A stretch of DNA of 64,000 bases from a virus. The position numbers were made by a program, and so were the translations under genes. This document shows positions 21,591-47,308 of this stretch, piece by piece. The stretch lies in IMG/VR virus record IMGVR_UViG_3300041955_000884, positions 43,198-107,197 of that record; one strand, 5' to 3'. The notes under the pieces were generated by a model. It ran no database searches, was not told where the DNA came from, and saw nothing but the letters and a program-made list of their open reading frames with translations. Each line of letters starts with the position of its first letter. Within the stretch, counting starts at the first letter, position 1.

Positions 21591-21766
21591 TCGCGGCGGG
21601 TGTTCTCTTGACGAGCCTCGCCACTGCGTGCCTGACCAACTGCGCCTGGGGCGCGATCATGGCGGCAGAACGTAAGTCCGAGGGCCTCGCTTGGTTCGCT
21701 GGTGTCAGCGCAGTCGCGGCGGCTGCTTTGGCCATCGGAGCCGCCACTACGCTGGGGCACGCATGA
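21587..21766 (+). CDS. Small membrane protein, two transmembrane segments
   Basis: 59 residues, below common gene-calling cut-offs. It is overlapped by ATGA at both ends. The hydrophobic segments MIAAGVLLTSLATACLTNCA and FAGVSAVAAAALAIGAATT are separated by a polar loop (MAAERKSEG). Could be a membrane anchor for the neighbouring sulfotransferase or an unrelated phage membrane peptide. Confidence 0.6.
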   Translation: MIAAGVLLTSLATACLTNCAWGAIMAAERKSEGLAWFAGVSAVAAAALAIGAATTLGHA

Positions 21767-22539
21767 GCGGCCACGTCATCCTCATCCTCGGCTGCCACAG
21801 ATCGGGCACCAGCTTAGTGGCGCGTTCGATGCGCTGCCTTGGAGGCGACTATGGACGGCGTGCGCTGTGGGCGGCGCCGGATAATCCGGTCGGCTTTTTT
21901 GAAGATCAGGGCGTCCTTAACTTGGACGAGCAAATGCTGCTGGCGCTCGGCTCGCGGTGGGATGACCCAGCGCCGCTGCGTGCCGACTTCGAGAAGACAT
22001 GGCCGTTCCGGTACGCCTTTTTCCCGGACGGCTTGGCGCTTCTGCGGTCGCGGCTCGTCGGCTGCCCGATATTTGTTCTGAAGGAGCCGAGGCTGTGCCG
22101 GCTGCTGCCGTTCTGGCGCGGCGTCCTGGCCGAAGTCGGCTGCCGCGTGTCCGTCGTCCACGTCGTCCGGCATCCCATGGCCGTGATGTCCTCCCTCATG
22201 AGGCGGAACGGCATGCCGCCTGGGAAGGCTTTTATGCTTTGGCTGGCGTACACGAACGAAGCGCGCGCCAACGTCGATCCGGCGTGGGCCTCGGTTTCCG
22301 TCCTCTACGACTACATGGTGCTTTTCCCCAGGTCCATCGTCGAGGACATCGGTGCTGCGCTGGGGCTTGAACCGGACCCGGCAGAGACCAAGCGCTTCGC
22401 CACTGAGTTCGTGGACGATGCGCTGTGGCATGAGGACGCTGACGATGACGACAACCTGCCGCTGGAGGTGCGCGTCGTGTGGGAAAAAGAGCGTGCTGCG
22501 GCCATGCGACCTCTATGCAATAATCCGCAGGCGTGCTAA
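21763..22539 (+). CDS. Sulfotransferase family protein
   Basis: 258 residues from ATG 21763. The N-terminus VILILGCHRSGTSLVARSM is the PAPS 5'-phosphosulfate loop, and SVVHVVRHPMAVMSSLMRR is the 3'-phosphate site. DNPVGFFEDQGVLNLDEQML is typical of bacterial sugar or nodulation sulfotransferases. With the glycosyltransferase, methyltransferases and aminotransferase that follow, it probably sulfates a glycan made or modified by this operon. Acceptor unknown. Confidence 0.8.
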   Translation: MSGHVILILGCHRSGTSLVARSMRCLGGDYGRRALWAAPDNPVGFFEDQGVLNLDEQMLLALGSRWDDPAPLRADFEKTWPFRYAFFPDGLALLRSRLVGCPIFVLKEPRLCRLLPFWRGVLAEVGCRVSVVHVVRHPMAVMSSLMRRNGMPPGKAFMLWLAYTNEARANVDPAWASVSVLYDYMVLFPRSIVEDIGAALGLEPDPAETKRFATEFVDDALWHEDADDDDNLPLEVRVVWEKERAAAMRPLCNNPQAC

Positions 22540-22578
22540 GGGGCGCTGAACCTCAACCCAGCATCGGAAGGCCACGGC

Positions 22579-23019
22579 ATGGGCCACATGACGCCGAAAA
22601 AGAGAGCGGCTCCAGAAACTGCGCACGTGAAGTGCGCAGCTCCAGATGGAGCAGCGGAAACACCACAGGTCGCCACACAAGGAGCGCCGCGCGCTCTCGA
22701 GGAATTCGCTGCGTTCTTTCTCGGCCAAGTGCGGGCCGTCGTCGAATCGGAAAAGCGTGCTGTCAATGCCGAGGCCGAGCTCAACGCGCTGCGCTTGGCA
22801 ATCCGCCATGAACATGACCGCGACTCGGCGGAGGCGTCGGCTGAAGCGACGAGGGCCGCCGACAGCGAATCACGCTGGACGCGCGAGAACAACGCCGTTC
22901 GCCGCGAAATCGACCGTTGGCGCTCCGGCGCGATCACAGCGCAAGAGGCCGTCGAGAAAATCGCCGGCTTTCTCAACGTGCAGGCGACGGTGCCGACGGC
23001 AGCGAGCGCCAAGCAATGA
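22579..23019 (+). CDS. Coiled-coil hypothetical protein
   Basis: 146 residues. Residues 40-110 are a charged coiled coil (VRAVVESEKRAVNAEAELNA). The C-terminus AITAQEAVEKIAGFLNVQA is helical. The stop overlaps the next ATG. Not recognised. Confidence 0.55.
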   Translation: MGHMTPKKRAAPETAHVKCAAPDGAAETPQVATQGAPRALEEFAAFFLGQVRAVVESEKRAVNAEAELNALRLAIRHEHDRDSAEASAEATRAADSESRWTRENNAVRREIDRWRSGAITAQEAVEKIAGFLNVQATVPTAASAKQ

Positions 23020-23219
23020 GCGGTGTCCTCAACGGGCTGCGCTTCGCCACGCCCGACAACGCGGTCGCGCTGAGCGTAGACCGCCTGCTGGATGAGCCCG
23101 GTTACCTGCAGTTCAGCCTGTCCGCCGCCTGCGGTATCTGTACAATGGGTATTGATCTTGATGTAGAGGAGGCTCGGCAGCTTCGCGACCTCCTGACTGC
23201 GTTCATCCAGGCGCCATGA
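23016..23219 (+). CDS. Small hypothetical protein
   Basis: 67 residues from ATG 23016 in an ATGA overlap. LQFSLSAACGICTMGIDLDV then EEARQLRDLLTAFIQ suggests a strand-strand-helix fold with a CxxC that may not be metal-binding. Not recognised. Confidence 0.55.
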   Translation: MSGVLNGLRFATPDNAVALSVDRLLDEPGYLQFSLSAACGICTMGIDLDVEEARQLRDLLTAFIQAP

Positions 23220-24154
23220 ATCTCGAGGTCCGAGTCGCGATGAGCGCGACGCCGAGCTTCGTCAACCGCACGCGGCTGCTGGCGGCGTCGGTACGGGAGT
23301 TCTACCCAGATGCGCTCGTGCGGGCGTTCGTGGGCGCGCGCGCGGAGCGTCCTGCCGAAAAGCTGATGCTTGAGCTTGATGGCGATGACATCCAGGTAGA
23401 GTGGGTCGGCGGCCAGCGATTCGATGCCTGGAGGGGGACGAGGAACGAATACGTCGGCACGATGGCGGCGCGTTACGAACCGATGTTCGAGGCCGACTAC
23501 GTCCTGATGCTGGATGCAGATGTAATCTGCCTCAAGCCATTCGATGAGCTGCTCGACGCGAAGGCGCTGTCCGGCGTCCAGGCTCACATCCCGCCGTTCT
23601 CCAACGATGTCTGGGAGCGGCTTCTCGTGGAAAGCGGGTTGCGGCCATTCTGGGCCAAGGAGCATCAGCACACGGGTTGGCAGGCAATGTTTACCGACCC
23701 GGCGATGCGCTTCGGTCCGCCTTACGCAAACACTGGCGTCTTGTTCGGCCCCGCGACGCTGTTTGAGCGCCTGTGGCCAGCCTACGACGCGGCCCTGACG
23801 CGGCTGCGGTCCCAGATGGACACCTACTTCTTCGAGCAGATTGCGCTCACGCTGGCGGCTGCCGAGGCCGGTGTTCCCCTCAACATCGTCCCGCTCCGCT
23901 ACAATTTCCCGAACCAAGCCGAGTTCGACCGGCTCCATCCCGAGGAATTGGCCGACTGCCGGTTCCTGCACTACCTGCGGACGGATACGGTGGACCGGGA
24001 GTGGGATTTCGAGAGCAGGGCGGCGATGGCGCGGCTCGTGGCGCGGCCAGGGCTGACGGGAAGCAACCTTTTGCTCCAGCGGCGCGTCGGGGAGCTGCTG
24101 GGCCGGGTCTGGCCAGCCGATGGATACACGGCGGAGGACGCGCCTTATGCCTAG
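23216..24154 (+). CDS. Glycosyltransferase (GT-A fold, family 8-like)
   Basis: 312 residues. YVLMLDADVICLKPFDEL holds the DxD-type metal/nucleotide-sugar site, and FGPPYANTGVLFGPATLFE is the acceptor-region motif of GT-A enzymes such as GT8. The N-terminus LEVRVAMSATPSFVNRTRLL is a Rossmann-like start. It probably transfers a hexose or modified sugar to a phage or cell-surface acceptor. Overlaps the preceding gene by ATGA. Confidence 0.75.
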   Translation: MNLEVRVAMSATPSFVNRTRLLAASVREFYPDALVRAFVGARAERPAEKLMLELDGDDIQVEWVGGQRFDAWRGTRNEYVGTMAARYEPMFEADYVLMLDADVICLKPFDELLDAKALSGVQAHIPPFSNDVWERLLVESGLRPFWAKEHQHTGWQAMFTDPAMRFGPPYANTGVLFGPATLFERLWPAYDAALTRLRSQMDTYFFEQIALTLAAAEAGVPLNIVPLRYNFPNQAEFDRLHPEELADCRFLHYLRTDTVDREWDFESRAAMARLVARPGLTGSNLLLQRRVGELLGRVWPADGYTAEDAPYA

Positions 24155-24429: not shown

Positions 24430-24661
24430 CGTCCCGTTCTGTCGCGACTGTCGGCACGTCCGAGTACGCGGTTTCTCCCACAAGGACTGGTGCTTTGCAA
24501 AATGCGCCGTCGCGCCGCTGGATCCACCAGCAATCGATATTGTGAGCGGAGAGGTAACGGCGCCACTGCTCCGATATTGCGACTTCGCGAGAAGCGATGT
24601 CGACTCGTGCGGGCCGACTGGCCGCTTTTTCGAACCGCGCCAGAAGCCGGCCGATGCCTGA
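24422..24661 (+). CDS. Cysteine-rich small protein
   Basis: 79 residues from ATG 24422. FCRDCRHV, WCFAKCAVAP, LLRYCDFARS and SCGPTGRFFEP provide six cysteines in the spacing of a conserved phage zinc-binding family. Function unknown; probably a structural zinc site. Confidence 0.6.
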   Translation: MPDVPFCRDCRHVRVRGFSHKDWCFAKCAVAPLDPPAIDIVSGEVTAPLLRYCDFARSDVDSCGPTGRFFEPRQKPADA

Positions 24662-26003
24662 CGTTTCGGTCTGGAGCGAGCGGGCGAAGCGCTGGGGCTG
24701 CGGCTGCGTTGACCTGCGGCTGACGCCGGACAGGTTCGATGCTGGCACCAAGATCGAGTGGGATGGCCTCAGCCAGGGGCTTGACCGCGTCGTACCGAGT
24801 GACTTCCACAGCGACAGGCGGCGTATCCTCGATTTCGGCTGTGGCGCTGGGCGGTTCTGCGGCTTCCTCGCGAGCGGCGGCCACCATGATGTCGTCGGAT
24901 ACGATCCCTGCGCCGAACTCATCGCGCTGGCGGAGCCGACGCCGGGCGTGGAGTTTACGACGGAGATGCCGGCTGGGGAATTTGCTCTGGTATGGTGCTT
25001 CGCCGTCCTCGGCGGCCTGACGGATGCGCAGCTCCCCGAGGCGGCCAGCCAAATCGCGGGGGCGCTGGCGCCGAACGGCACGCTGTTCCTGGCAGAGAAT
25101 ACCGACACGACGGCCTATCAGCGCGGGATATGGCGCATCCGGCCAGATGCGCAGTACGCGGAGTGCTTCAAGGCGGTCGGCGTCGGGCTGGCGGCCATCG
25201 GCGTGCACAGCTCCGGCGGCGCCGACACGACGATGTTCTGCGGGAAGCGTACCACGGGGACGATGGAAATCACCATTGACAATCGTGGGGTCAAGCGGCC
25301 GTTTTTCTGCCGCTGCGGGACATCGGACCAGAACGTGATGAACCAGGTGCTTAGATCGCGGGATCTGGACCTGGAGACGCTGAAGCGCTGGCCGGACATC
25401 GAGCGGTGGCTACAGGCGCATCCGAAGCCCCTCATCGTAGATGCCGGGGCGAACGTCGGGGCGGCATCGGTGTGGTTCGCGCTGAAGTACCCGCAGGCGC
25501 GGATTGTCGCCATTGAACCGGAGCCGTCGAACTTCGCCATGTTGGTGAGGAACGTCATGGGCCTCCGGGTCGAAGTATTCGAAACCGCGCTCCAGGGGCG
25601 CCCTGGATACGTCTCGCTGTTTCACCCGACGGGCGATCCCGTCGATGGCATGGGCCACGCCGCCTTCAGGACGCGCCCGGCGGATTCGTCGTTTGATCCG
25701 CGACGCGTCGGCGGTTCCGTCGCGGGAATTACGATGGAGTGGCCGCTTGTGCTTCCTGGCGTGACGCCCTTCATCGCCAAGCTCGACATCGAGGGCGCCG
25801 AGTCGGACGTGTTCTCCGGCGACACCTCGTGGATCAGCCGCTTCCCGGTGCTCATCGTCGAACTGCACGACGGCATCTATCCAGGGGAGCGGCTATCGCA
25901 GTCCTTCCTCAAGGCCGTGGCGCCCCTGGACAGGGACTTCGTGGTGAGGGGGGAACGGGTGTTCTCGATCGCCAATTGGCTGGGGAGAGAGCCGTGCCGA
26001 TAG
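24654..26003 (+). CDS. Fused methyltransferase: class I SAM domain plus FkbM domain
   Basis: 449 residues from ATG 24654. Domain 1 (about 1-195) has ILDFGCGAGRFCGFLA and GYDPCAELI, the SAM-binding motifs of class I methyltransferases. Domain 2 (about 205-449) has LIVDAGANVGAASVWFALKY, VAIEPEPSNFAML and FIAKLDIEGAE, the FkbM family signature for sugar O-methylation. A SAM-methyltransferase/FkbM fusion is unusual and suggests two successive methylations of one glycan. Coupled to the neighbouring genes by overlaps. Confidence 0.78.
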   Translation: MPDVSVWSERAKRWGCGCVDLRLTPDRFDAGTKIEWDGLSQGLDRVVPSDFHSDRRRILDFGCGAGRFCGFLASGGHHDVVGYDPCAELIALAEPTPGVEFTTEMPAGEFALVWCFAVLGGLTDAQLPEAASQIAGALAPNGTLFLAENTDTTAYQRGIWRIRPDAQYAECFKAVGVGLAAIGVHSSGGADTTMFCGKRTTGTMEITIDNRGVKRPFFCRCGTSDQNVMNQVLRSRDLDLETLKRWPDIERWLQAHPKPLIVDAGANVGAASVWFALKYPQARIVAIEPEPSNFAMLVRNVMGLRVEVFETALQGRPGYVSLFHPTGDPVDGMGHAAFRTRPADSSFDPRRVGGSVAGITMEWPLVLPGVTPFIAKLDIEGAESDVFSGDTSWISRFPVLIVELHDGIYPGERLSQSFLKAVAPLDRDFVVRGERVFSIANWLGREPCR

Positions 26004-27118
26004 ACCCAGCCAGGATGCTCCGCAGTCTCTGCGAGGTCCTGAATAGTGACGTCTGGATCGGCGACGGGCCGATGGCGAAGCGCTGCGAGGCGCTCATCCG
26101 CGAGCAGATCGGCGTCCCGCATGCGTACCTGACGCCGTCGTGCACATCGGCGCTGGAGATGGCCTGCGTCCTGGCCGGCATCGGCCACGGCGACGAGGTC
26201 ATCATGCCGAGCTTCGGGTTCTCGTCGGCTGGAAACGCAGTGGTGCTGCGCGGCGGCGTGCCAGTATTCGTGGACGTGAGGCCGGACACGCTGAACATCG
26301 ACGAAACGCTGGTCGAGGGGGCGATCACGCGGAAGACGAAGGCGATTATCGTGGTGCACTACGCCGGGGTCATGTGCGAAATGCCGGCGATCTACGGCGT
26401 CGTTGGTCCGCAGGTGCTCATCATCGAGGATGCTGCGCAGGCCTATCTGTCGCGCTACCAAAACCTTGCCGCTGGCACATGGGGCGACATCAGCGCATTC
26501 AGCTTCCACCAGACGAAGAACATCCGCTGCGGCGAGGGCGGTGCGTTGACGCTTCCAGAGGGAGGGATTGGCGACGAATTCGCAACACGCGCCGAAGTCC
26601 TCCGCGAGAAGGGCACCGACCGCGCCGCCTTCCTCCGCGGCGAGGTCCAGCGCTACACCTGGACGGACGTCGGCTTCTCCGGGGTCGTCAGCGAGTTCCA
26701 GGCGGCGGTGCTGCTGGCGCAGCTCGAGCGGGCGAAGGAAATCACGGAGCGGCGGCTGGCGCTGTGGGACCGCTATCACCACGCCATGACCAACCTCGAC
26801 TACTGGGGCAAGGTGAGGCGCCCAACGGTCCCTCCGCACTGCCAGCACAACGGCCATATCTACCGCATTCTGCTGCCCACGCAAGCCGAGCGCGACCGCA
26901 TTCTCGCTGCACTGAATGCCGACGGGGTGAAGGCAAGTTTCCACTTTCAGGCATTGCACTCCGCTCCCGCAGGATTGCGCTACGGACGCGTTTCTGGTTC
27001 AATGGCCGTCACGGACTCGGTTTGCGGCCGGCTGCTGCGCATGCCGCTTAGCCATGCCACGACGGAGGAAGACGTCGACAGGGCAGTGGACAGGCTGGAG
27101 AAGGCGCTGCGGGGATGA
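25994..27118 (+). CDS. DegT/DnrJ/EryC1-type sugar aminotransferase
   Basis: 374 residues from GTG 25994. HAYLTPSCTSALEMACVLAG and GDEVIMPSFGFSSAGNAVVL are the PLP-sugar aminotransferase N-terminal motifs. IIEDAAQAYLSRY and SAFSFHQTKNIRCGEGGAL contain the PLP-lysine site. The family aminates dTDP- or UDP-keto-sugars. With the FdtA-like cupin at 46844 it could make dTDP-3-amino-sugars (FdtB-like) from host dTDP-4-keto-6-deoxyglucose. Substrate not readable from sequence. Confidence 0.82.
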   Translation: MPIDPARMLRSLCEVLNSDVWIGDGPMAKRCEALIREQIGVPHAYLTPSCTSALEMACVLAGIGHGDEVIMPSFGFSSAGNAVVLRGGVPVFVDVRPDTLNIDETLVEGAITRKTKAIIVVHYAGVMCEMPAIYGVVGPQVLIIEDAAQAYLSRYQNLAAGTWGDISAFSFHQTKNIRCGEGGALTLPEGGIGDEFATRAEVLREKGTDRAAFLRGEVQRYTWTDVGFSGVVSEFQAAVLLAQLERAKEITERRLALWDRYHHAMTNLDYWGKVRRPTVPPHCQHNGHIYRILLPTQAERDRILAALNADGVKASFHFQALHSAPAGLRYGRVSGSMAVTDSVCGRLLRMPLSHATTEEDVDRAVDRLEKALRG

Positions 27119-27911: not shown

Positions 27912-28141
27912 GCGACACCGCCAGCACCGTCGCCATCGTGCCCGGGCGCCCGATACCCTGGGAGCTAAAGCAAGCCGCCTACGAGGAAGGACGCCGCGCC
28001 CGTACCGAGAAAATCGGCCCCATTATCAAGGCCTTCCACACCCGCCAGCGCAAGAAGCTCGAAGCCGCCGGCGTGGATATGATGGACCCAGACGCGATTG
28101 CCGAGGCCATGCGGAACATGGTAGAGGACGAGCCGGATTGA
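27908..28141 (+). CDS. Small hypothetical protein
   Basis: 77 residues from ATG 27908. The helical core is YEEGRRARTEKIGPIIKAFH then RKKLEAAGVDMMDPDAIAEA. Overlapped by ATGA at the start and TTGA at the end. Not recognised. Confidence 0.5.
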   Translation: MSDTASTVAIVPGRPIPWELKQAAYEEGRRARTEKIGPIIKAFHTRQRKKLEAAGVDMMDPDAIAEAMRNMVEDEPD

Positions 28142-28575
28142 GCGACACGAAGCCAATGAATCCCAAGGACATCATCGGCAGCGACAAGCTCCCGCTACAT
28201 CTCTGGCCGACCACGGCAACGGCGCTCGGCTGCCTCGCCTTCCTGGATGGCGCCCTCAAGTACGGCCGCAGCAACTTCCGCGTCGTCGGTGTCGGGGCGT
28301 CTATCTACTATGACGCCGCAAAGCGCCATCTCGATGCCTGGTTCGAAGGCGAGGAGGAAGACCCGCAAAGCGGCCTGCCGCACCTCGCCCATGCGTTGGC
28401 CTGTATCGCCATCATGGTTGACGCCGCCGCCGCCGGGAAGCTCAACGATGACCGCATGGCGCCCGGTGGCTACCGTGCCCAGGTCGAGGCGCTGACGCCG
28501 CATGTGGCGCGGCTGAAGGCGCTTCACGCCGGTCATGCGCCGCAACACTACACGATCAAACAGGGGCCGACATGA
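28138..28575 (+). CDS. dATP/dGTP diphosphohydrolase-like protein (MazZ/DUF5664 type)
   Basis: 145 residues from TTG 28138 (TTGA overlap) or 139 from ATG 28156. MNPKDIIGSDKLPLHLWPTT, FLDGALKYGRSNFRVVG, YYDAAKRHLDAWFEGEEED and LPHLAHALACIAIMVDA match the DUF5664 family. Its characterised members (MazZ) hydrolyse dATP/dGTP and help build 2-aminoadenine (Z) DNA. No PurZ or DatZ is in this window, so Z-DNA is not shown. A simple pool-cleaning role is the alternative. Confidence 0.68.
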   Translation: MSDTKPMNPKDIIGSDKLPLHLWPTTATALGCLAFLDGALKYGRSNFRVVGVGASIYYDAAKRHLDAWFEGEEEDPQSGLPHLAHALACIAIMVDAAAAGKLNDDRMAPGGYRAQVEALTPHVARLKALHAGHAPQHYTIKQGPT

Positions 28576-30809: not shown

Positions 30810-32059
30810 GACGCCCTCGGCGTTGTAATGTTCACCCGATGGCGCCCGATCTCGCCGTGTTCCCGGTGAAAGGTGATGGCCGACATTGCCCGGCCTGGTC
30901 GAAAGCGTGCGGCGTTCCAAGCATCTCGCGCGGCCGGCGTCGAAAAGCTCTCGACCCTGACGCCGCCGATCTCATTCGCCGTTTCGTGATGAACATGGCC
31001 GTACAGAAAGTGCCTATGCTCGGTCATGCCCCAGTCCTCTGGGCGATCTGCCGCGAGCATAATGGCCATCTGCGCCGGACGAATCGTGTGCCCGTGAGTG
31101 GCGCCAAGGAGAACACGACCGAATCGATGGTACCACGCGATTCCAGGCTCCTGATGCACGGTAATCCGTTCATTCGAGCTGTAGAATAGGGCCAAGGCCA
31201 CGGTGAGGCTCATGGCGGAGTCAGGATCATGGTTTCCGGGAAGAAATGCAACCTCTACTTCCGCATGCTTCCTGGCTACCATGTCAACAAGAGCAACTGC
31301 CAGCTTTGCGCCAGCGGCGAAGACCCTAGCCCACCTGCCGTCGACGTCAAGGGCATTCCCAGATTGCGGCGTGATGGCCTTCGCATCATTCGCGTGCCAG
31401 TAGTCGCCTAGGCCCAGGATTATTGCCTTCCGACTCGGCCTGGACTGCGCGACAAGGGCGCCTACGCTGTCGACCGCCAAGGCCGCCGCGATCTTCGTGT
31501 CGTAGTCAGCCCCAGTCTCGCGGCCCCACGCAAGCATCCCGAAATGCAGGTCCGGCAGCGGATAGACCGTCAGCAAATCGTCATCCGATTCGTCCGGCGC
31601 TGGGGCGACCGGGGCTTTTCCGTCGAACTCAGCAAAGGCTGCTTTCAGTCCCGCGATGAGCCCGTCGCCGGCGCCTTCGCGGGTCTTGACCCATTTCGCC
31701 AACACGCGGCCATCGGCATCGAGCAGCGCGCTTTCGCCCTTCACTACGTGGCCAGCCGGAGCCTCGTATTCGTCGCCAGCCGCGCGCCGCGATTGGATGA
31801 ACTGCCGCGTCAGCTTCCCGAGGTCGTCGTATTGCCCACTGTTGCGGACAATCTCGAACCCTTCAGGGGGCACCGCAATCTCGGGAATGGGCGGGCCGCC
31901 GACCTCGCCACGATAGGCGTTCAGCCTAGCCCGCCGGCATCGCCTCAGAACGCACGAGCGAGTGACCCCCAGCGCCTCGCCAGCCTTCGCATAGGACCCG
32001 TATTCGCGATATGCCGCCACGGCGGCGGCGTTGTCTGCGTCTGACGAACGTGCCGTCAC
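30806..32059 (-). CDS. Metallophosphoesterase with N-terminal helix-turn-helix
   Basis: 417 residues from GTG 32059. The N-terminal 45 residues (YGSYAKAGEALGVTRSCVLR) form a helix-turn-helix. The phosphoesterase core has PLPDLHFGMLAWG, LGLGDYWHAND, VAFLPGNHDPDS and LYGHVHHETA, the D-x-H, GD, GNHD and GHxH metal sites. Similar phage proteins are often annotated as DNA-repair exonuclease-like phosphoesterases. Its C-terminal tail is repeated at the end of the next HNH protein. Confidence 0.82.
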   Translation of the reverse strand: MTARSSDADNAAAVAAYREYGSYAKAGEALGVTRSCVLRRCRRARLNAYRGEVGGPPIPEIAVPPEGFEIVRNSGQYDDLGKLTRQFIQSRRAAGDEYEAPAGHVVKGESALLDADGRVLAKWVKTREGAGDGLIAGLKAAFAEFDGKAPVAPAPDESDDDLLTVYPLPDLHFGMLAWGRETGADYDTKIAAALAVDSVGALVAQSRPSRKAIILGLGDYWHANDAKAITPQSGNALDVDGRWARVFAAGAKLAVALVDMVARKHAEVEVAFLPGNHDPDSAMSLTVALALFYSSNERITVHQEPGIAWYHRFGRVLLGATHGHTIRPAQMAIMLAADRPEDWGMTEHRHFLYGHVHHETANEIGGVRVESFSTPAARDAWNAARFRPGRAMSAITFHREHGEIGRHRVNITTPRAS

Positions 32060-32410
32060 CGGCGCCCCCAGGCAGTTGCGGGCGAGAGTTATTCACAGGG
32101 ACGCGATTCGTTGCAAGTGCCCATTGTGTGACGGCGGAGGGGAGTGCCGGGCTTCCACCGGCCGCCAGCCTTCCGGGCTGTCTGCGACTGCGTGGGACGA
32201 CCACGCTCACAAGGCCATCGCGGCCTGCTTGCCTGCCCACGGGACAAGACCGCCCAGGTTCCGCTCCGGTCTACCCACCGGCCGCTTCATCGGGACGCTC
32301 TTCTGGTCCCCCCACGGTCGGCCTCTCGGCCATCGACGCGTCCCCCGGCTCGGGGAATCGGCAGCGGAAGAATGCCTATAAACGTCGGCTAGCGCAAGCC
32401 CGCAGCGGCT
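32060..32410. other. 350-base stretch without a confident gene
   Basis: Minus-strand reading gives short coupled frames only. One is about 20 residues after a GGGGGA site, one about 23 residues, and one about 52 residues from TTG with CERGRPTQSQTARKAGG. A 116-codon plus-strand frame also crosses it. None has a recognisable motif. It may be a decayed gene or a regulatory region upstream of the phosphoesterase. Confidence 0.4.
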
Positions 32411-33376
32411 TCACGGTGCTCCCGTAACACTAACCGCCTTCGTGCCGAGGAGGCGCCAAGCGCCCTGCCAGAAGGCGCAGAGCTCGAGCAGGTAGTCTCC
32501 CGCTGGCAGCGCGAACACAGCCTCGCCAGCCGTGCCGTACGCCGCGGCGTAGCTGATGCCGCTCACCGGCCTTCCGTTCCAGTAGCCCTTCCCGGCGGCG
32601 TCGAGCACGTTGACGCATGACCAGTCCCCGCCGGTGTCCGTCCAGACGAGCATCAACAGGCCGAGGATAGCGGAGCCGACGGTTATGGTTCCGGTCGGGT
32701 AGCCGAGCGCGGCCCCCACGATGGGATCCAGCGTGGCGAACATCGCCTGAGCCATCAGGTCGTAGCCGGATTGATTCGGATGGATGCCACTCCAGACGTT
32801 GAACATCTCAGAGTAGGACAGATCGGCGTGCCATGCGGCGCCCATCGCCTCCGTCTCGGCGTTGAAGTCAACGAGCGAAAGGCCAGCCGCCTGAGCGGCG
32901 CCGCGAACCATGGCCGCTTTGTCGTCGATGACGGCCGAGGCCCACGACGCATCGACCGCGTTCGGCGTCTCCAGCACGAGGCGCTTGCCAGCGGCCTGCG
33001 TGAGACGGACGATCTCGGCCAGCGGCGCCTGTACAGCCGCCGGCTCGTCGTTCATGCCGAGCGACAGCAGGACGACCGAGGCTGGAGTCGCGGCGACATA
33101 TGCCAGCCAGGAGTTCGCCACGCCGCCGGTGCCATCGAGCCAGTTCTGGAAAGTCGTTCCCGATACCCCGTTGTTGTTGACGACCACCAGCGGCCCGTAT
33201 TTCGCCTGGAGAAGCGCCCCAAGACCAGCCGGTGCTGGCGTCGCCACGACCGAGGAAACCGTGCCGTCGGCGCCGGGGGCCGGACCCGTGCTGGCGCCGT
33301 CGAACGTCAGCCCGAAAACCGTGCTGTCGCCATTGACGTCAACGACGAGGGGACTCGATGCGCTAGATTCGGTCAC
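32411..33376 (-). CDS. SGNH/GDSL-type hydrolase
   Basis: 321 residues from GTG 33376. LVVDVNGDSTVFGLTFDG holds the GDS nucleophile, NNNGVSGTTFQNWL the oxyanion Gly/Asn, LSLGMNDEPAA block III and IHPNQSGYDLMAQAM the Asp/His pair. The C-terminal 90 residues are beta-rich (VVNVLDAAG-like, LPAGDYLLELCAFWQG). Phage SGNH enzymes often deacetylate host surface sugars from a tail spike; here it may also edit the glycans of the accessory cluster. Confidence 0.78.
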   Translation of the reverse strand: MTESSASSPLVVDVNGDSTVFGLTFDGASTGPAPGADGTVSSVVATPAPAGLGALLQAKYGPLVVVNNNGVSGTTFQNWLDGTGGVANSWLAYVAATPASVVLLSLGMNDEPAAVQAPLAEIVRLTQAAGKRLVLETPNAVDASWASAVIDDKAAMVRGAAQAAGLSLVDFNAETEAMGAAWHADLSYSEMFNVWSGIHPNQSGYDLMAQAMFATLDPIVGAALGYPTGTITVGSAILGLLMLVWTDTGGDWSCVNVLDAAGKGYWNGRPVSGISYAAAYGTAGEAVFALPAGDYLLELCAFWQGAWRLLGTKAVSVTGAP

Positions 33377-35262: not shown

Positions 35263-35266
35263 AAAG

Positions 35267-35341: not shown

Positions 35342-35345
35342 TAGA

Positions 35346-35416
35346 TGGCGCCCCCGGCTGAAATCGAATCAGCATTCCTTGGCTTAGGAAGCCAGGGCCG
35401 CTCCATCGGCGGGGGC
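35346..35416 (-). tRNA. tRNA-Arg(CCT)
   Basis: Acceptor GCCCCCG/CGGGGGC, discriminator G, CCA encoded, anticodon loop TTCCTAA, T-loop TTCGATT, short D-arm as in Arg(CCG). Confidence 0.78.
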
Positions 35417-35420
35417 AATC

Positions 35421-35498
35421 TGGTCAGCGTGCGGTGATTCGAACACCGGCTCTCGTGCGCCCGAGGCACGCGCTTTGGCCTGGCTAAGCTACACGCTG
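35421..35498 (-). tRNA. tRNA-Pro(CGG)
   Basis: Acceptor CAGCGTG/CACGCTG, discriminator A, CCA encoded, anticodon arm CGTGC-CTCGGGC-GCACG, T-loop TTCGAAT. Confidence 0.85.
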
Positions 35499-35505
35499 TC
35501 GAAGC

Positions 35506-35581
35506 TGGCGCCCCAGACGGGTTCCGACCCCGCCAACATCGGCTTGACAAGCCGAGACCCCCGCCAGGGAGAATCTGGGGC
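35506..35581 (-). tRNA. tRNA-Asp(GTC), altered T-loop
   Basis: Acceptor GCCCCAG/CTGGGGC, discriminator G (Asp identity), CCA encoded, anticodon loop TTGTCAA. T-loop is GTCGGAA and the D-arm is CCC-TGGC-GGG. Confidence 0.78.
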
Positions 35582-35585
35582 AATC

Positions 35586-35667
35586 TGGAGGACGGCGGAG
35601 GTGACGATCCCCTTGCGGCCGGATTAAAGGTCCGGTCCAGCGCCTCGCTGGTATACGCTCGCCGTCC
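35586..35667 (-). tRNA. tRNA-Lys(TTT) with C33, altered T-loop
   Basis: Acceptor GGACGGC/GCCGTCC, discriminator T, CCA encoded, anticodon arm CCGGA-CCTTTAA-TCCGG with C33. T-loop ATCGTCA; D-arm is a tight hairpin CCAGCG-AGG-CGCTGG. Confidence 0.7.
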
Positions 35668-35672
35668 GAAAG

Positions 35673-35747
35673 TGGTTGCCGCACGCGGTACTGCCCCGCG
35701 AGCCTCTCGCTTATCGGGCGAGCGCACGACTTTCATGCTCTACGGCA
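35673..35747 (-). tRNA. tRNA-Ile(GAT) with C33, altered T-loop
   Basis: Acceptor TGCCGTA/TGCGGCA, discriminator A, CCA encoded, anticodon arm CTCGC-CCGATAA-GCGAG with C33. T-arm CGCGG-GGCAGTA-CCGCG. Confidence 0.75.
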
Positions 35748-35748
35748 A

Positions 35749-35833
35749 TGGTGAGTTGGTGTGGTGCTGCCCCACGCGCCCGAAGGCGAAGGATTTACAG
35801 TCCTCCTGCCGGAGCTGCCGGCTTTACCAACCC
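35749..35833 (-). tRNA. tRNA-Tyr(GTA), altered T-loop
   Basis: Acceptor GGGTTGG/CCAACTC, discriminator A, CCA encoded, anticodon loop CTGTAAA, long variable arm CGCC-TTCG-GGCG as expected for Tyr. T-loop GGCAGCA. Confidence 0.78.
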
Positions 35834-35839
35834 GTGAAC

Positions 35840-35910
35840 TGGAGCCGCGTCTCGGTGTTGCGCCGAGCCTCCGTCCATACCAAGGACGGGTGCAGACTGC
35901 TGCGCGCGGC
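35840..35910 (-). tRNA. tRNA-Thr(GGT), altered D- and T-arms
   Basis: Acceptor GCCGCGC/ACGCGGC, CCA encoded, anticodon arm CGTCC-TTGGTAT-GGACG. D-arm GCAG-CAGT-CTGC has a 4-base loop without GG. T-arm CTCGG-CGCAACA-CCGAG. Confidence 0.72.
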
Positions 35911-35913
35911 AGA

Positions 35914-36001
35914 TGGTGGAAGGCCCCGAGCACGATTCGGACACCTTTCGGTGCGCACGGTTTAGCAGACCGGCCCCGCAACCTTACGGGCTGTGCCTTC
36001 C
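35914..36001 (-). tRNA. tRNA-Ser(GCT), altered T-loop
   Basis: Acceptor GGAAGGC/GCCTTCC, discriminator A, CCA encoded, anticodon arm CCGGT-CTGCTAA-ACCGT, long variable arm, T-loop ATCGTGC. Confidence 0.75.
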
Positions 36002-36007
36002 AGAAAG

Positions 36008-36097
36008 TGGCGGACGGCGGCTAGTGCTGCCCTGCAAACCCGTTGGGGTCTCATCGGTTTTCGAGGCCGAGCCGCAGACTGCTGCGGGTCACCGTCC
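36008..36097 (-). tRNA. tRNA-Ser(CGA), altered D-arm
   Basis: Acceptor GGACGGT/GCCGTCC, discriminator G, CCA encoded, anticodon loop CTCGAAA, long variable region. D-arm CGCAG-CAGT-CTGCG, the same tetraloop as Thr(GGT). T-arm not well formed. Confidence 0.68.
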
Positions 36098-36209
36098 ATG
36101 TGCGCTCCAGCGCACTGTATCGCGGCTAATGTGCTCTTGAGAGCCGATTTTGCGGGCGCCGCATTCGCTGCGGTCGTTCAAGACTGGAGGCGGAGGCCAG
36201 CCCCCATAG
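36098..36209. other. Structured spacer in tRNA array
   Basis: Contains a perfect hairpin GTGCGC-TGGA-GCGCAC just upstream of tRNA-Ser(CGA) and a second nested stem (TCTTGA...TCAAGA enclosing CCGC...GCGG). No tRNA could be folded by eye. May be a processing element or a decayed tRNA. Confidence 0.35.
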
Positions 36210-36297
36210 TGGCGGAGAGCGGGCGCGCACGATGCCCATGCCTTGCGGCACCAGCCGGGTTCAAACCGGCGGTCGGAACCTTCCGACTTCACTCTCC
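36210..36297 (-). tRNA. tRNA-Ser(TGA), altered D- and T-arms
   Basis: Acceptor GGAGAGT/GCTCTCC, discriminator G, CCA encoded, anticodon arm GCCGG-TTTGAAC-CCGGC, variable arm TGCC-GCAA-GGCA. D-arm GTCGG-AAGGTT-CCGAC; T-loop begins ATCGTGC. Confidence 0.75.
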
Positions 36298-36301
36298 GTA
36301 A

Positions 36302-36389
36302 TGGCGGGCGGCGGGCGCAGTCGAAGCCCTGGCCTTTCGGCCTCATCGCGCTTCCAACGCGAGCCGGCGACCCCGCCGGTTCACCGCCC
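36302..36389 (-). tRNA. tRNA-Ser(GGA)
   Basis: Acceptor GGGCGGT/GCCGCCC, discriminator G, CCA encoded, anticodon arm TCGCG-TTGGAAG-CGCGA, long variable arm. D-arm CCGGC-GGGGTC-GCCGG; T-loop TTCGACT plus two bases. Confidence 0.75.
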
Positions 36390-36393
36390 AAAC

Positions 36394-36478
36394 TGGTAGC
36401 CCACGAAGGAGTTGCACCCTCACGCCGCGATGGCACGAGTTCCTAAGACTCGCGTGTCTGCTGTTCCACCAGTGGGCC
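36394..36478 (-). tRNA. tRNA-Leu(TAG)
   Basis: Acceptor GGCCCAC/GTGGGCT, discriminator A, CCA encoded, anticodon arm CGAGT-CTTAGGA-ACTCG, long variable arm, T-loop TGCAACT. Confidence 0.82.
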
Positions 36479-36483
36479 TAACT

Positions 36484-36567
36484 TGGTACGCCCGGGGAGA
36501 GTTGCACTCCCACGTCATGCGACACAACGCCCTCAACGTTGCGCGTCTGCTGTTCCGCCACGGGCGC
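36484..36567 (-). tRNA. tRNA-Leu(GAG)
   Basis: Acceptor GCGCCCG/CGGGCGT, discriminator A, CCA encoded, anticodon arm CAACG-TTGAGGG-CGTTG, long variable arm, T-loop TGCAACT. Ends one base from the HNH stop. Confidence 0.82.
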
Positions 36568-36568
36568 T

Positions 36569-37078
36569 CTATTTCGGTGCTGGCCAAATGTCGGCCAGGG
36601 TCGGACGACGCTCGCCGAGGACGAGCGACAGCCTGGATTTCGAGTGCGCTGGCGCTAGGCGGTCGAGCCGTTGCGCAGGCTGGGGCACATTGGCCAACGT
36701 CGCCTCCGAGATCGGCTCGGCATATTGGCCAATCTTGTGCAGGCCCCAGGACGCCGCGACGTGGAATTCGGGCTTGCGGGAGCCAGACGGACCCGGCTTC
36801 GCCACTGCTCTGACGCACGCCACCGCGCCCCAGCAGTGGCCGCAGGCGGCGCGGAGGTTGTTGCAGTGCCCGCAGACGAGGTGGTGCATTCTCGTGCCCG
36901 TGGGATACTCGTAGCGCCTCGTGCGCGGCAGGATGTGGTCCCGCGTGGCGCTCCGCTTGGCGTGGCCCTCGGGCAGCATCGGGTCGCCGCACTGGGGGCA
37001 GCAGACGGTCTCGCCCATCGCCTTCGCGAGGTCGAACAGGAGCAGCTTCCTCTTCGTGAAGCCCTGCGGCGCGCTCAT
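36569..37078 (-). CDS. HNH-like endonuclease in the tRNA array
   Basis: 169 residues from ATG 37078. CCPQCGDPMLPEGHAKR, RDHILPRTRRYEYPTG and HLVCGHCNNLRAACGHCWG form a zinc-bound HNH core. The C-terminal 80 residues are variable. It lies exactly between two Leu tRNAs, one base from Leu(GAG). A TTGCCT-16-TAGGCT promoter ends six bases before the ATG, so the mRNA may be leaderless. Confidence 0.72.
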   Translation of the reverse strand: MSAPQGFTKRKLLLFDLAKAMGETVCCPQCGDPMLPEGHAKRSATRDHILPRTRRYEYPTGTRMHHLVCGHCNNLRAACGHCWGAVACVRAVAKPGPSGSRKPEFHVAASWGLHKIGQYAEPISEATLANVPQPAQRLDRLAPAHSKSRLSLVLGERRPTLADIWPAPK

Positions 37079-37084
37079 GGCGGA

Positions 37085-37112
37085 AGCCTACCACGCTCGG
37101 CGCCGGAGGCAA
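37085..37112 (-). promoter_or_regulatory. Possible leaderless promoter of HNH gene
   Basis: On the minus strand TTGCCT (37112-37107), 16 bases, TAGGCT (37090-37085), then six bases to the ATG. The -10 is weak; supported by matching spacing at four other genes. Confidence 0.35.
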
Positions 37113-37116
37113 GATG

Positions 37117-37200
37117 TGGTGCCGGCGGCAGGCATCGAACCTGCACGCTGCGCGCGGCCCGGTTTAAGCGGGCTGGGTCTACCGATTCCCCCACGCCGGC
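37117..37200 (-). tRNA. tRNA-Leu(TAA)
   Basis: Acceptor GCCGGCG/CGCCGGC, discriminator A, CCA encoded, anticodon arm GCCCG-CTTAAAC-CGGGC, long variable arm, T-loop TTCGATG. Confidence 0.86.
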
Positions 37201-37203
37201 GAT

Positions 37204-37278
37204 TGGTGGCGCTAGGGGGATTTGAACCCGCCCTTTCCCGGTTGAGAGCCGAGCGGCCTGCCAATAGCCGATAGCGCC
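37204..37278 (-). tRNA. tRNA-Glu(CTC)
   Basis: Acceptor GGCGCTA/TAGCGCC, discriminator A, CCA encoded, anticodon arm CTCGG-CTCTCAA-CCGGG, T-loop TTCAAAT. Confidence 0.84.
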
Positions 37279-37282
37279 GAAA

Positions 37283-37357
37283 TGGAAGCGGGTGCCCGAC
37301 TCGAACGAGCGTGAAGGAGGTCAAAGCTCCCCGTCCTGGCCGCTGAACGAACCCGCC
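37283..37357 (-). tRNA. tRNA-Gln(TTG)
   Basis: Acceptor GGCGGGT/ACCCGCT, discriminator T, CCA encoded, anticodon arm GGGAG-CTTTGAC-CTCCT, T-loop TTCGAGT. Confidence 0.84.
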
Positions 37358-37363
37358 GCGATT

Positions 37364-37467
37364 GGTAGGCGATGACGGTGCCGACCCGTCTCGAACGCCG
37401 CCAGTGCGTAAGGGACCGTCGCCCCCTGGGCCGTCGCCCGCGTTCTGCCCAGCCGGGGCAATCGCCT
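37364..37467 (-). tRNA. tRNA-like gene with about 36 extra bases in the anticodon loop
   Basis: Acceptor AGGCGAT/ATCGCCT, discriminator A, CCA encoded. The D-arm GCCC-CGGCT-GGGC is identical to Gln(CTG), and the T-arm is GACGG-GTCGGCA-CCGTC. GAACG and CGTTC can pair as an anticodon stem but enclose about 43 bases instead of 7, with GGGCGACGG occurring twice. Either an intron-like insertion or a decayed tRNA. Isotype unreadable. Confidence 0.5.
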
Positions 37468-37505
37468 GCCGAGTTTCTAGCACGTCACATCCGATACCGC
37501 AATAG

Positions 37506-37580
37506 TGGAAGCCGACCAAGGTGTCGAGCCTTGCCCGACGAGCTTCAGAGGCTCGCGTGCCCAGCCGGGGCGATCGGCCG
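37506..37580 (-). tRNA. tRNA-Gln(CTG), altered D- and T-arms
   Basis: Acceptor GGCCGAT/GTCGGCT, discriminator T, CCA encoded, anticodon arm CGAGC-CTCTGAA-GCTCG. D-arm GCCC-CGGCT-GGGC, T-arm CAAGG-CTCGACA-CCTTG. Confidence 0.78.
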
Positions 37581-37583
37581 AAT

Positions 37584-37661
37584 GGTGCTCCTGGCCGCGA
37601 TTCGAACGGGCGACCCCCGGGATACAAAGCCGGTGCTCTGGCCAGACTGAGCTACAGGAGC
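37584..37661 (-). tRNA. tRNA-Thr(TGT)
   Basis: Acceptor GCTCCTG/CAGGAGC, discriminator A, CCA encoded, normal D-arm and TTCGAAT T-loop. Anticodon arm CCGGC-TTTGTAT-CCCGG has the C31:C39 mismatch seen at 34576. Confidence 0.78.
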
Positions 37662-37662
37662 T

Positions 37663-37739
37663 TGGGGTGACATGCCGGTACCGCCCCGGCCCAAACTGGG
37701 CTCACAACCCAGCGCAATCGCTTGCCTGCCCATGTCACC
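37663..37739 (-). tRNA. tRNA-His(GTG), altered T-loop
   Basis: Acceptor GTGACAT/ATGTCAC preceded by an extra G, discriminator C (His identity), CCA encoded, anticodon arm CTGGG-TTGTGAG-CCCAG. T-arm GCCGG-GGCGGTA-CCGGC; D region can form GCAA-GCGA-TTGC. Confidence 0.8.
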
Positions 37740-38133
37740 ATACGCAATCCATCCCGTCGCATCTATGCTCGCCTCGGTGTTACCCGTGGCTAGCCGTATC
37801 GCACGGCGAACGGGAGCCGGGGCTACCGTCTGTTTCAACGGTGTCGCCGGAGAGGTTTCGAGCCGGCATCGCTATGCTACGGCGGCATCGAAGACGGCTT
37901 GCCGCCGGCGGAGGGGTTAATCCCGCGCATCACCACCCTGGGTCGGGCTCCGCAATCCCCTGATGACTTAGCCGCTTCGCCGCCGGTTCCATGCCCAGCG
38001 CCGCTCGAAAGCTCCCTGCGGGCTAGCCTCGGCGCGCATCCGAAGCCAAGCTGGGCCAGCCTTAGAACCACCGCAGCGCTGGCCCGTCGCCCGCGTGGAA
38101 GGCTTCGCGTCTGTCCGCGATGCCGCAGGAAGG
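37740..38133. other. 394-base gap in tRNA array, possibly decayed tRNAs
   Basis: No tRNA could be folded with confidence. It holds several paired elements: GCCGTA...TACGGC flanking about 80 bases, GCCGG...CCGGC near 37850-37866, and an 8-bp stem GGGCCAGC/GCTGGCCC at 38053-38085. Spacing resembles two or three degenerated tRNA genes. A covariance search is needed to decide. Confidence 0.35.
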
Positions 38134-38209
38134 TGGAGAAGCGCCACAGAGTCGAACTGCGTGATGCGGGGTTGCAATCCGCCACCCAAGGCCGTCGGGT
38201 TCGCGCTTC
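38134..38209 (-). tRNA. tRNA-Cys(GCA)
   Basis: Acceptor GAAGCGC/GCGCTTC, discriminator T (Cys identity), CCA encoded, anticodon loop TTGCAAC with an A31:C39 mismatch, T-loop TTCGACT. Confidence 0.8.
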
Positions 38210-38214
38210 AATCT

Positions 38215-38288
38215 TGGCAGGGGCGTGAGGAATTGGACCCCATCTAGCTGGGTTGGAGCCAGCCGTGCTGCCGTAACACTTCGCCCCC
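38215..38288 (-). tRNA. tRNA-Trp(CCA)
   Basis: Acceptor GGGGGCG/CGCCCCT, discriminator G (Trp identity), CCA encoded, anticodon arm GCTGG-CTCCAAC-CCAGC, T-loop TCCAATT. Confidence 0.82.
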
Positions 38289-38292
38289 AAGT

Positions 38293-38367
38293 TGGCTCCA
38301 GAGGCAGGACTTGAACCTGCAACCTCACGGTTAACGGCCGTTTGCTCAGCCATTGAGCTACTCTGGA
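38293..38367 (-). tRNA. tRNA-Asn(GTT) with C33
   Basis: Acceptor TCCAGAG/CTCTGGA, discriminator G (Asn identity), CCA encoded, anticodon arm AACGG-CCGTTAA-CCGTG with C33, canonical D- and T-arms. Confidence 0.82.
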
Positions 38368-38373
38368 AAACTC

Positions 38374-38402
38374 GTCTGGCGCTCGGCCCTCTCGGGCCAG
38401 AC
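38374..38402 (-). terminator. Hairpin with short T-run between Gly(TCC) and Asn(GTT)
   Basis: Stem GTCTGGC/GCCAGAC with a 15-base loop, followed on the minus strand by GAGTTTT and then tRNA-Asn. A weak terminator or a processing stem. Confidence 0.3.
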
Positions 38403-38486
38403 TTTCCGGGCTACCCACCAGCGCGTTGCCATGGCTCGCTGGCCTCTATCCGTTATGGACTCGGGGTGACCGAGTCACGCCATGCT

Positions 38487-45269: not shown

Positions 45270-45576
45270 TCGGGAAGTCCATGTCGAGCGGCTCGCCGGC
45301 CTTATCTTTGATGCTGTCTGGATTGTAACCGGCGGCACGGATCGCCTTGCTGTCCTCCTCCCATCGCACACGCGCTTTCGCGGTGCTGGAGCCAGCCACA
45401 GCCGCCCACTCGGTCTGCACGTAGAGCGGCTTGCCATCGAGTTCCATGTACACAGTGTACGCCCTGAATGGCCTCCCATCAGCATCGTAGCCCGGCACGA
45501 TGTCACCGCGATCCTCGAACAGGAACGGGACGCGCTCGTCCGGCGCGTCAGCGCGCGCTATTGTCCACTCGGTCAT
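45262..45576 (-). CDS. Small protein carrying a major-capsid-protein motif
   Basis: 104 residues from ATG 45576 with an AAAGGAAAG site. Residues 18-45 (FEDRGDIVPGYDADGRPFRA, YTVYMELDG) align with FEDRGDIVPGYDVSNNPFPA and YTSYFEWNA of the major capsid protein, also at the DNA level. The rest (QTEWAAVAG, VRWEEDSKAIRAAGYNPDS) does not. Either a capsid-gene fragment built into another protein or a shared fold element. Confidence 0.7.
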   Translation of the reverse strand: MTEWTIARADAPDERVPFLFEDRGDIVPGYDADGRPFRAYTVYMELDGKPLYVQTEWAAVAGSSTAKARVRWEEDSKAIRAAGYNPDSIKDKAGEPLDMDFPNA

Positions 45577-45749
45577 TTTCTTTCCTTTACCTTGGCCCGT
45601 TCGAAGAGTCGGCACCAGGCATTCGGTTGTATCGGCCCGACAACCAACTCGCAGGACCGCGGTGGCCGCCAGTGCTGGCAGACGGAGCAGTGGCGCACGG
45701 GCGAGCCTCGTCCGTAGTGTACTTGGGACTTTCGGAGCTTCTTGGTCAT
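45573..45749 (-). CDS. HiPIP-like small cysteine protein
   Basis: 58 residues, missed by a 60-residue cut-off. [20 protein letters not shown], then [20 protein letters not shown], follows the CxxC...SCxLVxGxIxPxxWCxLxE pattern of high-potential iron-sulfur-like or small zinc proteins common in alphaproteobacterial phages. ATGA overlaps at both ends. Metal type not determinable. Confidence 0.65.
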
Positions 45750-46561
45750 CCGAAGAACGTCACGCCAAGCGGGACGACGACCAGCGGCGACCGGCGACGG
45801 GCCAGCTCCGCGCGCAACTCCGATTCCGAGAAGCCGCCGACGTATGTCCGCTTGCGCTGATTTGCGGCTTGTTCCCTAGCCGTTGCCCAACGCACATTGT
45901 GAGGCTCATAGTTGCCGTCAACGTCGATCCGATCAAGCGAATGACGCTTGCTGGGACGGGGACCAGTATCCGAGAGAAAAGCCTCGAAGTCGTTTTCCCA
46001 CCTGTCGCAGACCTGGATACCACGGCCGCCGTAGTTGACGTACTCCTTTGTCTTTGGGTTCCGACACCGGCTGAGCATCGTCCGCCAGATGCCGTACTCG
46101 CTCATCGAGGACTTGCCGTGCGTGCGCCGCAAGGCGCCAATCTTTTCGACGTTAAGGCAGCCACAAGATCGCGTCGTGCCTGCCCGAAGGTTCATTTGCG
46201 CGACCTGCTTTTCCGCTCCACAATCGCAGCGGACGCCCCACGACCTCTGCGGTCCGACGCCAGAAGGACCGTTCACAACCATAAGGCGACCGAAGCGATC
46301 TCCGATGTGCACGACCGGGCAACGCTGGAGAGCCGTAAATTCCGCCTTGCGGCAACCGCACGACTTCGACCTGCCGCTCTGCAGGACCCCGATTTCGACG
46401 GAGCGCTCCTTCCCGCACACGCAGCGAACGGAGCACGCGGGCGCTGCGTCTCCATAGGGATTCGGCGCGTCCTCCAGAATGACCGTCCAGTAACCGAAAG
46501 CGTCACCGACCGCTGGCCGTGGACGACTCGACTTAGACCAGCCTTTGACGCCCTTTGGCAT
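45746..46561 (-). CDS. HNH/AP2-type homing endonuclease
   Basis: 271 residues. Two N-terminal zinc-ribbon-like repeats ([16 protein letters not shown]...SCGC and [16 protein letters not shown]...SCGC) precede [40 protein letters not shown] and [20 protein letters not shown], the common phage HNH with AP2-like contacts. It separates a hypothetical gene from the HiPIP-like gene. Confidence 0.82.
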
Positions 46562-46851
46562 CAGCCGCCGCCCTCAATGCGCTCCGGGCCCCCCGTTTCC
46601 TGGAACACTTCCGTCGCCACATGGCGGCTTAGGTTGTCCTGGACGAACGTCGGCATCAGCGAACGGCCAACTGGCCCGAATTGCGTCAGGTACGCAGTCA
46701 CAGCATCGCCGCGTTCATTCCAGGTCACCAAGGCGAACCCGGCAAGTCGCTCGTCGTGCTGCTCGATCCCGTACTTCACGCTTCGGCCAAGACACCGCCG
46801 CACCTGGGCCAGCCGCTCCTTCGCCGGCTTAATCTCCCGGATTTCAGCCAC
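46561..46851 (-). CDS. Hypothetical protein
   Basis: 96 residues from GTG 46851. [40 protein letters not shown] and [20 protein letters not shown] suggest a small alpha/beta protein. Overlaps the FdtA-like gene end by 8 bases. Not recognised. Confidence 0.55.
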
Positions 46852-47308
46852 TGTCGCAGAGTTCCGGCTGGCGGCGGCGTAGGATGACCCAACGCTGCTC
46901 GTCAAGATGAACCGCTGGCTCGGCCACTGCCGCGTCGAAGACATCACGCTCCGCGATCTCGTCTTCCGGTTCGCAAGGCCGCGACGCCAGGATGAGGGCC
47001 GTTCCGCCGCCGGGTTCGCCCCAAGCGTAATCCAGCCACGTCATCGGCGGCACGTAGAGCGCCTCGCCAGGAATGAAGCTGAACCTGTCGCGGCGACCGC
47101 CGGTGTCGCAGTTCACGAGCAGGGCGTTGACGGCGGGCACGAGCAACAGGTGGCAGAGGCGGTAGGCGCGGGCACCAGCCCAGATGTAGGCCCGCGGCGC
47201 GCTCACGGTGAGGCAGCGCACGGCCTCGAACGGGATCGGGTCTAGCGTCGCCAGCGTGGTGCAGCCGTCCAGCTTACGCTCTGGAACGAATTTCAGGAGG
47301 CGGGTCAT
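46844..47308 (-). CDS. FdtA/QdtA-like sugar-ketoisomerase cupin
   Basis: 154 residues from ATG 47308. IPFEAVRCLTVSAPRAYIWA, GARAYRLCHLLLVPAVNAL and EALYVPPMTWLDYAW, then LILASRPCEPEDEIAERDVF, follow the dTDP-6-deoxy-3,4-keto-hexulose isomerase pattern. The usual HAHK catalytic patch reads ARAYRLCH, so one key His may be missing. If active it would feed the aminotransferase at 25994. Confidence 0.62.
   Translation of the reverse strand: MTRLLKFVPERKLDGCTTLATLDPIPFEAVRCLTVSAPRAYIWAGARAYRLCHLLLVPAVNALLVNCDTGGRRDRFSFIPGEALYVPPMTWLDYAWGEPGGGTALILASRPCEPEDEIAERDVFDAAVAEPAVHLDEQRWVILRRRQPELCDSG

Follow-up and report, generated by a model that had tools for sequence, protein, structure and literature searches.

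A set of genes predicted to build and modify a sugar lies in the 64,000-nucleotide stretch of viral DNA analysed here (the window), which comprises bases 43198-107197 of the 107,197-base IMG/VR virus record IMGVR_UViG_3300041955_000884 and has a G+C content of 65%. The portal protein (47634-49538, minus strand; PF12236, 387 bits), the terminase (56445-57959) and the major capsid protein (15612-16655, minus strand; phrog_212) are all of the epsilon15/BPP-1 type, and we therefore place the virus among the podoviruses of that kind. Cultured podoviruses of this type have genomes of about 40 kb; the 107-kb record, from an uncultured virus, is far larger, and a search of the cultured phages for a DNA relative found no close one. 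The first 43 kb of the record were annotated in part, and the absences of gene families reported below apply to the 107-kb record, which may be incomplete. Relatives in the lineage were gathered by scans with the portal and capsid proteins; these relatives and the other viral loci used for comparison are designated by G and L numbers.

The sugar genes are contiguous on the plus strand at about 20.5-27.6 kb, and we refer to them as the cassette. In order, they encode a conserved protein of about 180 amino acids (aa) that belongs to no known family (21045-21590), a sulfotransferase of the Sulfotransfer_3 type (21763-22539, 258 aa), a putative GT8-like glycosyltransferase (GT) of the GT-A type that is a conserved member of the cassette (23216-24154, 312 aa), an S-adenosylmethionine (SAM) methyltransferase fused to an FkbM methyltransferase (24597-26003, 468 aa), and a WecE-type sugar 4-aminotransferase (25994-27118, 374 aa) whose start overlaps the methyltransferase stop. 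The related genes on the minus strand are a two-domain GT (42282-43988, 568 aa) and a cupin of the FdtA/WxcM family (46844-47308) that adjoins the portal gene. The portal gene forms one boundary of the head module. The cassette occupies a slot bounded by the two-domain GT at 42.3 kb and the scaffold and capsid genes at 17.6 kb; the scaffold-like head protein on this side (16655-17554, minus strand) was recognized by its position before the capsid gene and by its conservation. This virus retains the ancestral order of portal, two-domain GT, scaffold and capsid. An earlier note on the window, made from its sequence alone, had described a dispersed pathway for an amino-, methyl- and sulfo-modified sugar. 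The pathway looks dispersed because the slot is about 25 kb long and holds, besides the cassette, an array of 25 tRNA genes (34019-39611, minus strand), endonucleases and other cargo. This cargo does separate the cassette from the two-domain GT, but the cassette itself is contiguous within one slot, and in one relative all of these genes are contiguous (see below). A promoter and terminator scan of the cassette found no more signals than in shuffled sequences.

Direct family matches bore out several of the assignments in that note. The fusion protein matches methyltransferase family PF13489 at 1e-14, and its FkbM part scores 66.8 bits against a TIGR01444 cut-off of 37.7; the two-domain GT combines a GT2 domain (PF00535) with an Anp1-like domain (PF03452), corresponding to phrog_14945 and phrog_1574; and the aminotransferase belongs to the DegT family (PF01041, 284 bits). 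Two further enzymes were confirmed with the help of relatives. The sulfotransferase falls just under the PF13469 cut-off (25.6 bits against 27), and its ortholog in L019 lies above it (35.7 bits). The motifs for 3'-phosphoadenosine 5'-phosphosulfate (PAPS), HRSGTS and RHPxAVxxS, are invariant across four sulfotransferase orthologs, identities to those in L018, L019 and L045 being 54%, 44% and 47%. The best matches to its AlphaFold model (predicted local distance difference test, pLDDT, 83) are sulfotransferase domains and tyrosylprotein sulfotransferases. The product of 23216-24154 matches no Pfam family above cut-off, GT8 included; D100-x-D102 is invariant in its orthologs, and a moderate model (pLDDT 70 only) has LgtC as its top fold match and also matches UGGT and glycogenin, all of which points to a GT8-like enzyme of the GT-A type. 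The genes are thus real and the set is far more than chance, every gene of the cassette having family-level or ortholog matches; the observation in the note is confirmed in part. The same note had also counted a P-loop protein at 2033-2665 (minus strand) as a second sulfotransferase of the pathway. This protein matches no Pfam family above cut-off, and its ortholog in L046 scores just 18 bits and adjoins the same tail gene; we excluded it because it is only weakly sulfotransferase-like and is linked to the tail gene rather than to the cassette.

The aminotransferase exceeds the NCBIfam equivalog cut-off for WecE (NF008687, 435 against 375 bits), staying just under that of the stricter subfamily model TIGR02379 (412 against 434.85 bits). 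Among solved structures, WecE enzymes come closest to it (325 and 315 bits); QdtB is far lower at 117 bits. The lysine that binds pyridoxal phosphate (PLP) is kept (K175 in SFHQTKN). WecE works at C4, directly on dTDP-4-keto-6-deoxyglucose, so that no ketoisomerase is needed. Since the equivalog cut-off is passed, amination at C4 is to be expected, and the product should be dTDP-4-amino-4,6-dideoxygalactose rather than a 3-amino sugar. The WecE score is shared with the WecE/RffA branch of enterobacterial common antigen synthesis, but no WecD-, RmlA- or RmlB-type partner was seen here, and the gene lies in a phage head module, not in a surface-glycan operon. It had been proposed instead that a dTDP-3-amino-deoxysugar is made through the FdtA-like cupin. 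The cupin does score in the FdtA family (31 bits, cut-off 23), and its relative in L006 matches WxcM at 2e-12, FdtA at 1e-6 and the structures of both FdtA and QdtA, so the family assignment held. However, catalysis by FdtA uses His49, His51 and His95, of which His49 and His51 are strictly conserved (PMC2943079), and in our alignments these three positions are occupied by Arg, Tyr and Leu in the cupin and by His, Leu and Ile in its relatives. The cupin gene adjoins the portal gene in the closest relatives also, and persists in relatives that yielded no aminotransferase. It thus shares a sequence family with the dTDP-sugar ketoisomerases FdtA and QdtA but differs from them in its lost catalytic histidines and its place beside the portal; it is related to FdtA by descent but probably no longer a ketoisomerase, and a binding role is possible. 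With these residues lost and the aminotransferase of the WecE type, we rejected the 3-amino route, which seems to us hardly credible.

The cassette and the head module are linked in several relatives. In G002 and G013 (capsid protein 94% identical), a sulfotransferase (54% identity), the GT8-like GT (51%), a methyltransferase (33%) and the 180-aa protein adjoin the capsid gene, and their order and orientation match those of the present virus. G014 carries the sulfotransferase and GT beside its capsid gene, and G007 the two-domain GT and methyltransferase. In G010, whose portal is 66% identical, the two-domain GT, methyltransferase, GT8-like GT, 180-aa protein and sulfotransferase are contiguous between portal and capsid. 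The 180-aa protein always accompanies a sulfotransferase or GT (L018 7348-7881, L019 4329-4877, L045 1163-1702) and is possibly a fourth component of the cassette. In 16/16 loci where both portal and capsid are visible (about 11 distinct viruses), the two-domain GT or its Anp1 domain is situated between them, although these loci were found with the GT itself, which weakens the count to evidence on position, not on frequency. A homolog of the C-terminal domain of this GT directly follows the capsid gene in two annotated phages.

Other relatives fill the region with different enzymes. G017 has a TylF-type methyltransferase there (PF05711, 342 bits). L054 (1045-5097) carries genes for a transketolase subunit, for an NAD-dependent epimerase/dehydratase and for an enzyme of the DegT family; the two GT domains come next, each encoded by its own gene. 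L100 (16440-20972) repeats this set with the addition of a methyltransferase and a GT2-TPR protein. At the position of the PLP lysine the DegT-family proteins of both loci have His, as do the ColD/E1 dehydrases, and the set beside the GT genes points to a deoxy or branched sugar.

Scans of viral contigs with a single aminotransferase, methyltransferase or sulfotransferase protein gave no result; alignment-based scans gave matches. Two unannotated records, those of Pseudomonas phages Y4 and Y5, contain matches to the sulfotransferase and the aminotransferase. Outside the lineage, the sulfotransferase alignment retrieved 30 more viral loci, and 10 of the 30 (about 8 distinct viruses) have a homolog of the Anp1-type GT domain on the same strand, its nearest copy within 1.2 kb; random placement was equally close in 0 of 200,000 trials. 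In L085 the genes, which share one strand, run capsid, head-tail adaptor, neck, GT, GT2, sulfotransferase, GT, major tail protein, and in L086 the sulfotransferase-GT pair comes before the terminase and portal genes. Sulfotransferase-GT pairs also recur in structural modules of unrelated phages. A broader generalization can be offered only tentatively: several unrelated lineages of tailed phages might sulfate their own virion glycans through such an embedded pair, and in the present virus head proteins would carry a sulfated, methylated 4-amino-4,6-dideoxy sugar.

We favor, with no great margin of confidence, the view that the cassette in the head module of this large epsilon15-like podovirus builds and tailors a glycan whose product is most likely displayed on the virion. 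Gene families, catalytic motifs, synteny and co-conservation together suggest a scheme in which the substrates of the transferases, the order of the steps, the virion target and the linkage are predicted. The WecE-type enzyme would aminate host dTDP-4-keto-6-deoxyglucose at C4 to give dTDP-4-amino-4,6-dideoxygalactose; the two-domain GT of the head module would place sugar on a virion protein, for which the major capsid protein is a candidate acceptor; the GT8-like enzyme would extend the glycan; and the methyltransferase-FkbM fusion and the sulfotransferase would cap it with host SAM and PAPS. Neither an NTP-transferase (RmlA) nor an RmlB-type dehydratase nor any other epimerase family was found in the record, which points to the host as the source of dTDP-4-keto-6-deoxyglucose, in agreement with the reliance on a host precursor that had been proposed before. 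Host PAPS is likewise the expected sulfate donor since a search of the record for APS kinase found none; its synthesis by the phage was rejected for this reason. That the enzyme attaching the sugar occupies the same spot in many relatives makes decoration of the virion with sulfated sugars probable.

Several observations weigh against this view. Among close relatives, the aminotransferase was seen in this virus alone, and in the fusion protein only the N-terminal half is conserved, the FkbM half being seen in this virus only; the co-conservation expected of a single pathway is seen for the sulfotransferase, the GT8-like GT and the methyltransferase, found together in relatives, but does not extend to these two parts. 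In cultured Pseudomonas phage Shamal the GT is absent at the portal-capsid position, and in G016, L096, L101 and the group L104-L112 it is present with no recognized sugar enzymes in the slot. In most relatives the tailoring genes lie on the strand opposite to that of the structural genes and may therefore be expressed at another time.

The earlier note had left the target as the virion, phage DNA or the host surface; the evidence narrows this choice towards the virion without settling it. Antisense orientation to late genes would suit a cassette that modifies the lipopolysaccharide (LPS) or capsule of the host, for example excluding other phages in the manner of O-antigen-converting phages. 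WecE-type enzymes normally serve surface glycans such as enterobacterial common antigen, and bacterial surface-glycan loci commonly hold sulfotransferases, FkbM and GT2 enzymes. We nevertheless think modification of the host surface unlikely, though it deserves real weight: across relatives the two-domain GT keeps its place in the head module, the sulfotransferase-GT pair of an unrelated lineage is embedded among head and tail genes, and the record has no GtrA-type flippase (PF04138). The transferases of the set have no transmembrane-like segment, and none of them is membrane-spanning. Serotype conversion by a gtr cassette was rejected on these last grounds.

Modification of the phage's own DNA, with sugars added to its bases as phage GTs do on hydroxymethylated bases, appears decidedly improbable. 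Glycosylation of DNA by phage GTs is known, and a connection between sulfotransferases and nucleotide modification has been reported (PMC12619734, PMC10829341); a DNA-methyltransferase-like gene is also present at 40342-41043. Against this, the record, which as noted may be incomplete, has neither a thymidylate synthase (TS)-type hydroxymethylase (PF00303) nor a TET/JBP dioxygenase (PF12851), and the genes to which the GT is linked are those for portal and capsid, not DNA genes. It would be at least as surprising if the slot between GT and scaffold were a mere hotspot for cargo and the sugar enzymes unrelated passengers. The tRNA array, an Acb2/Tad1-like protein, a GDSL hydrolase and homing-endonuclease-like genes in the same slot fit such a hotspot; yet sulfotransferase, GT, methyltransferase and 180-aa protein stay together in several relatives, the sulfotransferase-GT pairing recurs elsewhere, and in distinct relatives other sugar enzymes occupy the region. 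Decoration of the virion thus remains our preferred interpretation.

Several neighboring genes merit mention. The protein at 17971-18675 (plus strand) has a C-terminal Acb2/Tad1 hairpin domain (PF24729, 8e-15), a family of sponges that counter CBASS and Thoeris defence, and the gene at 32411-33376 (minus strand) in the cargo slot encodes a GDSL-type acylhydrolase (PF13472, 1e-15) that could be a sugar esterase. Directly after the cassette, 28138-28575 (plus strand) encodes a dATP/dGTP diphosphohydrolase N-terminal domain (PF18909, 7e-24). This gene suggested a genome with 2-aminoadenine, which was rejected because no match to the adenylosuccinate-synthase (PurZ) family was found in the record. 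Related endonuclease-like ORFs lie between structural genes (49538-50404, 45746-46561 and 41554-42423 of the window, all minus strand; L018 8713-9498), and a GIY-YIG gene adjoins the glycosyltransferase; all are likely homing elements. A motif of the capsid protein, EDRGDIVPGYD..PF.AYT.Y.E (capsid residues ~193-220), reappears in small separate ORFs, one of which has two copies (window 45262-45615, minus strand; L019 13889-14182, 14182-14745 and 3125-3724), and these ORFs could encode decoration or capsid-mimic proteins. Elsewhere in the record, L003 10893-19925 (minus strand; record bases 30893-39925) encodes a 3010-aa protein of the DarB-like antirestriction or helicase-methyltransferase kind (phrog_10089, 1708 bits).

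Glycosylation of phage virions is already known, whereas sulfated virion sugars would be new for bacterial viruses. The established cases are mycobacteriophages Che8, Corndog and Myrna (Freeman et al. 2023, cited from PMC11256854 and PMC12363180), in which phage-encoded GTs, as we propose here, are presumed to modify structural proteins of the phage itself. The capsid glycans of these phages are proven, whereas ours are predicted from genes, and the present virus differs in its sugar-nucleotide aminotransferase, sulfotransferase and methyltransferases, in being an epsilon15-type podovirus, and in having a GT fixed between portal and capsid. Clustered sulfotransferase, aminotransferase and GT genes also occur in the Megavirinae, where those of Moumouvirus australiensis have been proposed to make clade-specific sugars for capsid fibrils, sulfation being unproven (PMC10117803). 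These eukaryotic giant viruses, unlike the present virus, encode entire sugar pathways and an APS kinase of their own, whereas here host precursors and host PAPS would be required. Marine phage genomes likewise carry Sulfotransfer_3 genes, for which no function was proposed (PMC10580990), and in the open literature, covered in part, we found no paper linking phage sulfotransferases to structural-module GTs. The linkage seen here suggests such a function: synteny offers a testable role for phage sulfotransferases in tailoring glycans made by the GTs of structural modules. The conserved order portal, GT, scaffold, capsid is a marker by which glycosylated podoviruses, and the differing sugar enzymes of their relatives, can be found. 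If our interpretation is correct, sulfated virion glycans would make the particles strongly negatively charged and could affect their adsorption, their retention in soil, or their recognition by enzymes and antibodies.

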